NCBI GenBank assembly: GCA_030429235.1
Contig: JAUIDB010000017.1
Coordinates: 1 to 64,000 of the forward strand
Direction of reading: 5' to 3'
From: Thermoanaerobaculia bacterium
GTDB taxonomy: Bacteria; Acidobacteriota; Thermoanaerobaculia; Multivoradales; JAIOJS01
DNA: 64,000 nt
The translations under genes and the position numbers were made by a program. Position 1 is the first letter of the stretch, and each line of letters starts with the position of its first letter. The notes beneath the pieces are model-generated. The model saw nothing but the letters and a program-made list of their open reading frames with translations, searched no databases and was not told the origin of the DNA. Of the stretch, positions 25,369 to 30,847 are shown piece by piece.

Positions 25369-25424
25369 CGATACTGCCGGCGACGCCGTGCGACCGCTCG
25401 CAATCAAGCAACAAAGGAGAGACG

Positions 25425-27233
25425 ATGAAGCAGAGAATGTTGTGTGCCGGGGTCCTCGCGGTCTGGCTGATCGGCTCGGTGCCGTCGCTGGCGGCAGAGG
25501 AGATGGCCGCTCCCACCGTGGCGGAAGCTCGTGAGTTCCTGGAACAGGCCGAGGAGCGCCTGCGGGATCTGTGGATCATCTCCGGCCGGGCCCAGTGGAT
25601 CGCGTCGACCTACATCAACGAAGACAGCCAGATTCTGGCGGCCAAGATGGATGAAGACGTCATCCGCGCCGTCATCGAACTCGCCAACGAAGCGGCTCGA
25701 TTCGATGGACTCGACCTGCCCGACGATCAGGCTCGGATGATGAAGAAGCTGAAGCTGGCTCTGGTGCTGCCGGCTCCCAACGACGCCGAACTCACGGCGG
25801 AGTTGACCCGGATCAAGGCCCGTATGGAGGCGACGTACGGCTCGGGCAAGTACTGCCAAGGGGACGACTGTCGCGACCTGACCGAACTGAGTCGCCTGAT
25901 GGCGGAGAGTCGCGACCCTGAAGCCCTGCAGGATGCCTGGAGTGGCTGGCGGACGATCTCTCCCGTGATGCGTGAGGACTTCGCCCGCTACGTGGAACTC
26001 GGCAACCAGGGGGCCCGGGAACTCGGCTACGACGACCTGGGCAACATGTGGCGTTCGAACTACGACATGGATCCCGATGCCTTTGCGGCCGAGGTCGATC
26101 GCCTCTGGAACCAGGTTCGGCCCTTCTACGAAGCGTTGCACTGCTACGTCCGGGCGCAACTCAACGAGAAGTACGGCGACGAGGTACAGCCGGCCAGTGG
26201 TCCGATCCGAGCCGATCTACTCGGCAACATGTGGGCCCAGGAGTGGGGCAACATCTATCCCCTGGTGGCCCCTGAGGGGCAGGGCGAAGCGGTCGACGTG
26301 ACCGCGCTCCTGGTGGCGGCGGAAGCCGACGAGCGCGCGATGGTGCGTTACGGCGAGGCGTTCTTCAGCTCGCTCGGTTTCGAACCGCTCCCCGACTCGT
26401 TCTGGGAGAAGTCCCAGTTCTCGAAGCCCCGAGATCGTGAGGTCGTTTGCCACGCGTCGGCCTGGAGCCTCGACTTCCAGGACGATCTGCGGATCAAGAT
26501 GTGCATCCAGATCACCGAGGAGGAGTTCACCACCATCCACCACGAGTTGGGGCACAACTACTACCAGCGGGCGTACAACGAGCAGCCGATCCTGTTCCAG
26601 GACAGCGCCAACGACGGCTTCCACGAGGCGGTCGGGGACGCGATTGCCCTGTCGGTCACGCCCAACTACCTGGTGAAGATCGGCTTGCTCGATGAGGCGC
26701 CGCAGGGCGGCAGCGAGATTGCCCCCCTACTCAAGATGGCGATGGACAAGATCGCGTTCCTCCCCTTCGGTCTGTTGATCGACCAGTGGCGCTGGAAGGT
26801 GTTCTCGGGCGAGTTCGGTGAGGACGACTACAACGCTTCGTGGTGGGAGCTTCGTCAGAAGTATCAGGGAATCGAGCCGCCGGTGGCGCGGACCGAGGCG
26901 GACTTCGATCCGGGAGCCAAGTACCACGTACCGGCGAACGTGCCCTACACGCGCTACTTCCTGGCCCGGATTCTCCAGTTCCAGTTCCATCGGTCTCTCT
27001 GCGACGCCGCTGGCTACGAGGGGCCGCTGCACGAGTGCTCCATCTACGGGTCCCAGGAGGCGGGAGAGCGGCTGCACGAGATGCTGGCCATGGGGTCCAG
27101 CCGTCCCTGGCCCGAGGCGCTGGACGCGCTGACCGGTTCGTCGGAGATGGACGCGACCGCCATCCTCGACTACTTCGCGCCGCTCAAGGGGTGGCTGGAC
27201 GAGCAGAACGCCGGACAGTCCTGCGGCTGGTAG
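25425..27233 (+). CDS. M2-family peptidyl-dipeptidase, ACE-like
   Basis: Secreted zinc dipeptidyl carboxypeptidase homologous to angiotensin-converting enzyme, removing C-terminal dipeptides. A signal peptide ends at Ser-Leu-Ala-Ala. Zinc ligands are His373-Glu374-x-x-His377 and Glu401, with the same 24-residue spacing as in human ACE. The C-terminal block 'KYHVPANVPYTRYF' and 'LQFQFHRSLC' is close to the ACE substrate-carboxylate and chloride region. At 602 residues it is the single-domain form. The ATG at 25425 has AAGGAGAG upstream. Bacterial M2 enzymes are known but uncommon; a role in peptide scavenging is inferred. Confidence 0.93.
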   Translation: MKQRMLCAGVLAVWLIGSVPSLAAEEMAAPTVAEAREFLEQAEERLRDLWIISGRAQWIASTYINEDSQILAAKMDEDVIRAVIELANEAARFDGLDLPDDQARMMKKLKLALVLPAPNDAELTAELTRIKARMEATYGSGKYCQGDDCRDLTELSRLMAESRDPEALQDAWSGWRTISPVMREDFARYVELGNQGARELGYDDLGNMWRSNYDMDPDAFAAEVDRLWNQVRPFYEALHCYVRAQLNEKYGDEVQPASGPIRADLLGNMWAQEWGNIYPLVAPEGQGEAVDVTALLVAAEADERAMVRYGEAFFSSLGFEPLPDSFWEKSQFSKPRDREVVCHASAWSLDFQDDLRIKMCIQITEEEFTTIHHELGHNYYQRAYNEQPILFQDSANDGFHEAVGDAIALSVTPNYLVKIGLLDEAPQGGSEIAPLLKMAMDKIAFLPFGLLIDQWRWKVFSGEFGEDDYNASWWELRQKYQGIEPPVARTEADFDPGAKYHVPANVPYTRYFLARILQFQFHRSLCDAAGYEGPLHECSIYGSQEAGERLHEMLAMGSSRPWPEALDALTGSSEMDATAILDYFAPLKGWLDEQNAGQSCGW

Positions 27234-27354: not shown

Positions 27355-28485
27355 ATGATCGATAGTCGAACCCCGGCCACACCGTGGGCCTTCCAGGTCG
27401 GCGTCATCCTGGGAATTCCGATCCGGGTCCACTGGACCTTCGTGCTCCTCGTGGTCTGGATGGGTGGCATCACCGCGAATCAGGGGGCCAGCTTTCTGGT
27501 GGGAGTGATCCTGACCCTGCTGCTCTTCGCGTGTCTGGCTTGCCACGAGGTGGGACACGCGGTGGTGGCTCGACGCTTCGGGGTGCAGACCCTGGAGATC
27601 GTTCTCTATCCAGTCGGTGGGATCTCTCGTACCGCTGCGATTCCGCCGGGCTGGCCCGAACTGGCGATCGCAGTGGCCGGTCCGATCGTCAACCTGCTCC
27701 TGGCTTTGCTGTTGATTCCGCTGCTTCCTCTCCTCGGAGCCACGAGTCCGAGCCTCGACCTCGAACCGGGGGCCATCGCCTACTTCCTGCTCTTCGCCAA
27801 CCTCGGCCTCTTCTTTCTGAATCTGATCCCCGCCTTCCCGATGGACGGCGGCCGGATCCTGCGGGCCGCCCTTTCGCTCGGCATGCCGGCAGACCGCGCG
27901 GCTCGTGCCACCGGGATGGTGGGGCAGGGCTTCGCGCTGATGCTGGGGATCCTCGGCATCGCGGCGGCTCAGTTCCTCATCGTTCTGATCGCCCTGCTCG
28001 TCTACTTCGGGGCGAGTCAGGAGGCCTCGCTCCACCGCCGCCAGGGAGCGCTGCAGGGGCGTCGCGTGCGGGAGGCGATGATGACCCGTTTCGAGCGGCT
28101 TGCGCCTCAGCAATCGATCCGGCGGGCCCTCCAACTGCTCCTCAACACTCCGCAAAACGACTTTCCGGTCGTCGACGCCTGGGGGCGAGCGGCTGGAGTC
28201 GTCACCCGCTCGGCGCTGCTCGCCGGGCTCGGACGTCTGGGTCCAGATGCCGCCGTCTTGGAGGTCATGCACCGTTCTCCTATCACCGTCAGTCCCGAGG
28301 CGGATCTGGCCGAGCTGATGGCGGGCCTGCAGGGCGCTCCGGCGGGACCGATTCTCGTGGCCGAAGAGGGCAAGGGAGTGGTGGGCATGCTCACCGCGGA
28401 GAGCGTCAGCCAGTTTGTCGCCGTACTCGGCCAGCTCCAAGAGGTGGCTCGCCCCCGGACTCCTCCCGCGCAGGGCGGGTCGTAG
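27355..28485 (+). CDS. Site-2-type M50 metalloprotease with CBS domains
   Basis: Intramembrane zinc protease of 376 residues. The membrane part holds His64-Glu-Val-Gly-His68 in the second helix region and the third ligand Asp164 in Asn-x-x-Pro-x-x-Pro-Met-Asp-Gly-Gly-Arg. After the last helix come two CBS domains (about residues 245-365), which usually bind adenine nucleotides and would tie proteolysis to energy state. This domain pairing is the common group III site-2 protease form. The substrate is unknown; anti-sigma factors are typical targets in the superfamily, and one is encoded at 55.4 kb, but no link is shown. Confidence 0.92.
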   Translation: MIDSRTPATPWAFQVGVILGIPIRVHWTFVLLVVWMGGITANQGASFLVGVILTLLLFACLACHEVGHAVVARRFGVQTLEIVLYPVGGISRTAAIPPGWPELAIAVAGPIVNLLLALLLIPLLPLLGATSPSLDLEPGAIAYFLLFANLGLFFLNLIPAFPMDGGRILRAALSLGMPADRAARATGMVGQGFALMLGILGIAAAQFLIVLIALLVYFGASQEASLHRRQGALQGRRVREAMMTRFERLAPQQSIRRALQLLLNTPQNDFPVVDAWGRAAGVVTRSALLAGLGRLGPDAAVLEVMHRSPITVSPEADLAELMAGLQGAPAGPILVAEEGKGVVGMLTAESVSQFVAVLGQLQEVARPRTPPAQGGS

Positions 28486-29668: not shown

Positions 29669-30847
29669 TTGATCAAGCATCGCGTTCGTTTTCTTCTCGT
29701 TTCGCTGACCGTCGGCGTGCTGTTGGCGGGCGGTTCGCTTCTGGCCGTAGTCGATCGGCAGGAGGAGCCGGAACCGGACTCGTTCTACAAGTACCTGTCG
29801 GTCTTCACCGAGGTCCTGGGCCTCGTCCGGCAGACCTACGTCGAGGAAACCGATGTCGATAGCCTGATGGAGGGAGCCTTCGAAGGCGCCGCCGACGCGC
29901 TCGATGCGTTCTCGGTCTACATTCCGCCGGCGGATGTGCCTCGCTACCAGGCGGCGCGGCAGGACCAGCCGCCCGATACCGGACTCTTTCTGATTCGGGA
30001 CCGCGGTTGGGTGTACGTCTCGTCCGTGACCGACGGCAGCACGGCGGAACAGGCCGGCATCGAAGCCGGCGACCTCGTCGCTCAGGTCGACGACGAACCG
30101 ACTCGCGAACTGCAGGTCTGGGAGATCGAAGCTCTTCTGGCCGCGAAGGCAGGTGGCGAAGTCCAGCTGGAGCTCCTGCGGCAAGGGGAAACCGTCGAAG
30201 TGACGCTCCCCGTCCAGGCCACCGACACCGCCCCAGCCTCGCTGCAGGAGATCGATGGTGTCTCCCTGCTCCGGATTACCCAGATCACTTCCGAAACCGA
30301 GGCGACGGTGCGAGACCTCTTGACCTCGCCCGAGGCACCAGCGGGCGAACTGTTGGTCGATCTGCGCGGAGTCGCCGGCGGGGATCCGCAGGCCGCCTAC
30401 GACGTGGCCGGCCTCTTCGCTTCGGGTCCCCTGGGCTCGCTCCAGAGTCAGGGGCGAGTCGAGCGCGAGTTCGTGGCCGACCAGCAGCCGATCTGGCAGG
30501 GCCGCCTGGTGGTCTTGGCCGATCGGACGACGCTCGGTGCCGCCGAATTGCTGGTCCTGGTCCTCAAGGAGGGGTCGGGGGCACGGTTGGTCGGGGAAGC
30601 GACCTACGGCTGGGCCGGTCGGTCCGATCTGATCCCGCTCTCGAGCGGTGGTCTGTTGGTGTTGACCGGCGCCTTCTACGCCGGCCCCGAAGGACAGATT
30701 CTCGACGGCGCGATCGAGCCCGATCTCCGGGTGACGATCCGCGATCGGACGCTGGCCGAGAAGGACTTGACCCTGGAAGAGCTGATGCTCCGGCGCGGAA
30801 TCGAGCTGCTGCTCGAGCCCGAGCTCCTCGACCGCGTCGCAGCCTGA
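29669..30847 (+). CDS. S41 CtpA-like protein lacking catalytic Ser and Lys
   Basis: C-terminal processing peptidase homologue of 392 residues: N-terminal membrane helix (about 7-28), PDZ domain at about 105-185, S41 core after it. Aligned to the E. coli Prc pattern, the Ser-Ala-Ser-Ala-Ser-Glu motif reads Thr288-Leu-Gly290-Ala-Ala-Glu293, and the catalytic Lys 25 residues later is Trp315. The dyad is therefore gone while the fold and PDZ appear intact, which suggests a binding or scaffolding pseudoprotease. The start is TTG at 29669, with GGGAG nine bases upstream and six bases after the EnvC gene. Confidence 0.88.
   Translation: MIKHRVRFLLVSLTVGVLLAGGSLLAVVDRQEEPEPDSFYKYLSVFTEVLGLVRQTYVEETDVDSLMEGAFEGAADALDAFSVYIPPADVPRYQAARQDQPPDTGLFLIRDRGWVYVSSVTDGSTAEQAGIEAGDLVAQVDDEPTRELQVWEIEALLAAKAGGEVQLELLRQGETVEVTLPVQATDTAPASLQEIDGVSLLRITQITSETEATVRDLLTSPEAPAGELLVDLRGVAGGDPQAAYDVAGLFASGPLGSLQSQGRVEREFVADQQPIWQGRLVVLADRTTLGAAELLVLVLKEGSGARLVGEATYGWAGRSDLIPLSSGGLLVLTGAFYAGPEGQILDGAIEPDLRVTIRDRTLAEKDLTLEELMLRRGIELLLEPELLDRVAA

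Follow-up and report, generated by a model that had tools for sequence, protein, structure and literature searches.

CtpA-type proteases are known to degrade cell-wall hydrolases. In Pseudomonas aeruginosa, an active CtpA with this function is encoded in the operon envC-ctpA-PA5135 (PMC12569750). Its catalytic residues are Ser302, Lys327, and Gln331; the substitutions S302A and K327A each abolish activity, and the effect of Q331A is only minor (PMC11021448). In Escherichia coli, envC adjoins yibQ (sddA), and the SddA protein modulates daughter cell separation and has been modelled to bind EnvC (PMC12440217). CtpA, EnvC, SddA, the envC-ctpA-sddA operon, and pseudoproteases as a kind are already known. 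The literature on bacterial S41 pseudoproteases, as far as our partial coverage of it extends, describes neither a catalytically dead CtpA in an envC-ctpA-sddA operon nor repeated loss of the catalytic dyad at one locus across a phylum.

The window analysed here is a stretch of 64,000 nucleotides from a Thermoanaerobaculia bacterium (Acidobacteriota), and its relevant features are collected in Table 1. A preliminary description of this DNA had proposed an S41 homologue that retains the family fold and its PDZ domain, and the profile matches and the predicted structure bear this out. Pfam Peptidase_S41 (2.2e-18) and PDZ_6 (5e-10) both score above cut-off, and the NCBIfam profile prc (TIGR00225) is matched at 1.5e-30 and 106.4 bits, short of its cut-off of 218.6 bits. 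The best sequence relative in the PDB is P. aeruginosa CtpA (7rpq, 9e-30; phmmer). In structure comparisons the AlphaFold model (pLDDT 92, pTM 0.85) matches CtpA and CtpB over the full chain with Z 32-33, and it is closer to resting-state CtpB (Z 31.6-31.8) than to active-state CtpB (Z 22). Residues 101-186 of the model align with the PDZ domains of HtrA/DegS, and the domain is placed between the N-terminal helices and the S41 core, as in active S41A proteases. Within the predicted N-terminal helix, R5 and S12 are near-invariant in the alignment of the order.

Table 1. Coordinates of the S41 homologue, its sequence features, and neighbouring genes in the window.
Feature	Coordinates	Strand	Evidence
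Bacterial angiotensin-converting-enzyme-like M2 peptidase, upstream of the operon	25416..27233	+	Pfam 2e-225
Site-2-type M50 protease with CBS domain, directly upstream of envC	27355..28485	+	
EnvC-like amidase activator (predicted), coiled coil and degenerate LytM/M23 domain, 376 aa	28532..29662	+	Pfam Peptidase_M23 1.8e-17
CtpA/S41 pseudoprotease (predicted), 392 aa, TTG start, open frame	29669..30847	+	Pfam, NCBIfam, phmmer, AlphaFold model
Hydrophobic N-terminal helix (predicted), residues 2-29, as signal or membrane anchor	29672..29755	+	Model helix and hydrophobic sequence
PDZ domain, approx. residues 102-183	29972..30217	+	Pfam PDZ_2 108-181, PDZ_6 116-171
Gly290 at catalytic Ser position	30536..30538	+	phmmer alignment to 7rpq and order alignment
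Trp315 at catalytic Lys position	30611..30613	+	phmmer alignment to 7rpq and order alignment
Ser319 at Gln position of proposed triad	30623..30625	+	phmmer alignment to 7rpq
YibQ/SddA-like divergent polysaccharide deacetylase, 339 aa	30857..31876	+	Pfam Polysacc_deac_2 1.4e-72

The alignment to CtpA 7rpq sets Gly290, Trp315, and Ser319 of the window protein against Ser302, Lys327, and Gln331, which confirms the earlier reading that the S41 dyad is replaced by Gly290 and Trp315 at the spacing of 25 residues. That reading had also asked whether the two substitutes are conserved in relatives; this holds for the glycine and fails for the tryptophan. In all 36 copies with data from the same order the Ser position is Gly, and Lys is absent from the Lys position throughout, so that the replacement is due neither to chance nor to a local accident or assembly error. 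Trp is seen in the genus to which the window belongs and in a small number of relatives, and elsewhere in the order His, Tyr, Phe, or Leu is found (His 16, Tyr 7, Trp 6, Leu 5, and Phe 3 across these 36 copies). Since position 315 is variable, we rejected Trp as a selected residue. A search of the core for an alternative conserved nucleophile or base returned none in the aligned copies: the only polar positions conserved at 85% or more are D231, R233, E293, and T333, and the core is devoid of conserved Lys, His, and Cys. With the catalytic residues absent by alignment and the S41 fold kept, the protein qualifies as a pseudoenzyme, and we infer from these comparisons that it is very probably not a protease.

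The envC-like, pseudoprotease, and yibQ-like genes lie on the same strand in the order of the envC-ctpA-sddA operon and are tightly spaced. The pseudoprotease start codon is 6 nt past the envC-like stop and the yibQ-like start is 9 nt past the pseudoprotease stop, in keeping with the position between these neighbours given in the preliminary description; the three genes are apparently co-transcribed. The EnvC-like protein matches the NCBIfam EnvC profile PRK11637 at 1e-16, far below its cut-off, and its best PDB match is a 'Peptidase M23' chain (8tzk, 5e-25), followed by E. coli EnvC (8hd0/6tpi). Most metal-ligand positions of its LytM domain are lost in the alignment, as had been claimed. The further suggestion that this loss is coupled to the dead S41 protein had to be dropped, because degeneracy is normal for EnvC: all EnvC copies examined are without most of these ligands, E. 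coli EnvC also aligns without most zinc ligands, and the EnvC proteins beside Ser-Lys copies are equally degenerate. The window's genome also encodes FtsEX and three Amidase_3 genes, which may constitute the machinery served by EnvC; FtsX binding and amidase activation by this EnvC are putative.

Named relatives assign the window to Acidobacteriota, the nearest of them being a Thermoanaerobaculia MAG. A search of 59 genomes of the same order returned an S41 match in 55 and the orthologue proper in about 53, at 37-65% identity. Among about 84 Acidobacteriota copies beyond the order, Ser-Lys is kept only in one family of the same class, f14, in 8 of 14 copies; the others are Ser-Arg, Ala-Lys (2), Gly-Lys, and Gly-Arg (2). 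Some 70 copies come from outside both the order and f14, and in these the two residues never coincide: there is a single Ser, paired with Thr, and there are two Lys, one paired with Gly and the other with Asn. Among the remaining families of the class, as well as in 50 copies from families elsewhere in the phylum, Gly is again the dominant residue, with occasional Ala, Gln, Arg, Asn, His, Trp, and Lys. Loss of the dyad spans the phylum, a scale that the preliminary description had missed, and most likely reflects many separate losses. The f14 loci (L104-L107, L128, L129, and L200-L207) present a single operon gene in Ser-Lys, Ser-Arg, Ala-Lys, Gly-Lys, and Gly-Arg versions. In family f12 (L096-L099 and L199), insertions that differ in length separate the former Ser position from the former Lys position, and there the 25-residue spacing is lost too.

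Linkage to envC and yibQ is widespread. In the order, envC lies upstream in 27/34 loci and yibQ downstream in 24/33; the corresponding counts are 18/18 loci with enough sequence and 18/19 in the other families of the class, and 13/13 and 7/11 in f14. Beyond the class, envC was found in at least 23 of 49 loci and yibQ in at least 10 of 47, both lower bounds because the envC and yibQ profiles were built mostly from the class. One order genus (f3/g3) has lost the linkage, its pseudoprotease gene lying outside the envC/yibQ operon at three loci (L115, L116, and L118, from G047, G011, and G058); at L115 it is flanked by an Hsp70 gene and an unidentified ORF. Outside the class, two loci where envC is missing have a class A PBP gene just downstream (L150, 892-3309, minus strand) or a YceG/MltG lytic transglycosylase gene just upstream (L158, 4696-5772, minus strand). 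A long open frame in L063 had hinted at a fusion with EnvC, and this candidate was rejected, the upstream part being without a Pfam match.

Evolutionary rates were estimated by the Nei-Gojobori method, with YN00 for part of the pairs. Inactive pairs gave dN/dS of 0.07-0.27, Ser-Lys pairs 0.11-0.16, and one dyad-losing f14 pair 0.39, values that are approximate because dS is often near or above 1. The low ratios indicate that the pseudoprotease is under purifying selection.

The history of the dyad was examined on a tree of 63 rows from which three active-site columns had been dropped. Here f14 is nested deeply within the inactive copies, and its sister group is f15 (Gly-Lys; 100/100). If loss of the dyad is irreversible, the tree requires at least seven parallel losses of Ser (two phylum clades, a clade of the order plus other families, f15, the Gly-Arg pair, L105, and the L128/L129 pair); otherwise it requires one re-activation. 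A two-state likelihood test weakly favoured a reversible model, with borderline 2dlnL of 4.3 for the dyad, 3.3 for Ser, and 2.5 for Lys. The codons and accessory residues point the other way. All nine f14 serines are encoded by TCN, two steps from the GGN of Gly, and Ala GCC intermediates are present. All 14 f14 copies have the canonical residues Asn235, Gln319, and Gly305, and position 235, which is Asn in all canonical and f14 copies, is mostly Val, Leu, Thr, or Cys in the others. The equivalent of CtpA His84 is Phe in f14 too. On the strength of the TCN serines, the Ala intermediates, and the canonical Asn235, Gln319, and Gly305, we prefer repeated loss along the path Ser to Ala to Gly, and consider re-activation less likely. 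A combined reading, in which the dead CtpA is a dedicated non-cutting subunit of the FtsEX-EnvC-amidase/SddA system of cell separation in Acidobacteriota and f14, in addition, regained its dyad from an inactive ancestor, is improbable as a whole: the tree would allow the natural re-activation of a pseudoprotease, but the TCN codons of the f14 serines and the retention of Asn235 and Gln319 speak against that second part.

Because the dyad has been lost and the gene is yet selected beside two genes for splitting the cell wall in most of the Acidobacteriota sampled, its job in cell separation is probably binding, not cutting. We propose that a non-proteolytic member of the CtpA family keeps its PDZ domain and CtpA fold to bind a partner without cleaving it. 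The protein would be exported, with its N-terminal helix probably serving to hold it in place. Candidate partners are EnvC, SddA, an amidase, or another wall hydrolase; binding, presumably through the PDZ domain, may position, stabilise, or hold back cleavage of septal peptidoglycan, and the protein could in this way help to time and place the action of amidases and the deacetylase. Periplasmic degradation would be left to a separate S41 paralogue with intact catalytic residues. The ancestral operon protein was probably an active protease that also had a binding role, and Acidobacteriota would repeatedly have lost the cutting and kept the binding. A role as scaffold or regulator in EnvC/SddA-dependent cell separation is, on balance, the reading that we consider probable. 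Against it weigh the lost linkage in f3/g3 and the frequent failure to detect envC and yibQ beside copies from beyond the class. The preliminary description is thereby upheld in part; the complex that it proposed, and its control of wall hydrolases, are putative. Should most of a phylum have retained the protein and given up cleavage, the function for which the EnvC/SddA operon conserves this gene would probably be binding or scaffolding, and the residual function of a catalytic mutant could test this in active systems. In f14, whose Ser-Lys copies we assume to be active, copies that look active, intermediate, or dead occur at a single locus and form a natural series for the passage from enzyme to pseudoenzyme.

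The main rival to the scaffold reading is a mixed complex with intact S41. Nearly all genomes searched contain a second S41 gene, usually of 550-600 aa and about 25% identical to the pseudoprotease; its Asn-Ser-Lys-Gln set is intact in 20/20 genomes examined by HMM alignment, and two further genomes, as well as that of the window, were found to retain Ser-Lys. The pseudoprotease could be a regulatory subunit of this paralogue, lowering or redirecting its activity in mixed dimers or hexamers, comparable to the control that iRhom pseudoproteases exert over an active protease. CTPs do function as dimers or hexamers (PMC11021448, PMC8764530), and no genome checked lacks the intact paralogue. One genome of the order (G010) has an extra inactive S41 copy divergent beside the intact gene (L124:160-5130), in addition to its operon copy (L125), an arrangement that would suit such a complex. 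Against it, identity between the pair is only about 25%, and in most genomes the two genes are unlinked, whereas the pseudoprotease gene stays with envC. We regard the mixed complex as unlikely.

A second alternative is that the old substrate cleft carries or receives a small hydrophobic ligand, in the manner of IRBP. Modules of IRBP align to the core with Z 15-17, and most copies of the order have an aromatic or hydrophobic residue in place of Lys, but the gene neighbourhood indicates peptidoglycan and not lipid. IRBP modules are also not known to have the PDZ layout that the window protein keeps, and a ligand carrier seems distinctly improbable. Still less credible is an enzyme that works with a different nucleophile or base such as Thr/Ser288: position 288 is always Ser or Thr, but active CTPs carry the same Ser/Thr two residues before their nucleophile, the core has no conserved Lys, His, or Cys, and position 315 varies within the order. 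That the gene is decaying and will eventually be lost is the least likely reading of all, for although stepwise loss from Ser through Ala to Gly is ongoing in f14, including the pair at 0.39, matches in the genomes of the order have no internal stops, dN/dS is low, and invariant positions persist at 40% identity.

Among the described systems, P. aeruginosa CtpA (S41A) shares with the window protein its fold, PDZ domain, length, and gene order with EnvC and SddA; the window protein lacks Ser302, Lys327, and Gln331, and also the equivalent of His84, where it has Phe81. Helicobacter pylori CtpA and Bacillus CtpB (S41A) are its best structural matches, whole-chain at Z 32-33, but they carry the dyad that the window protein does not, and identity is only about 21%. 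IRBP/RBP3 modules have an S41-like core and no known proteolysis, and belong to an animal retinoid carrier with no cell-wall context. The E. coli envC-yibQ (sddA) pair places EnvC and SddA side by side as here, but with no S41 gene between them (PMC12569750).
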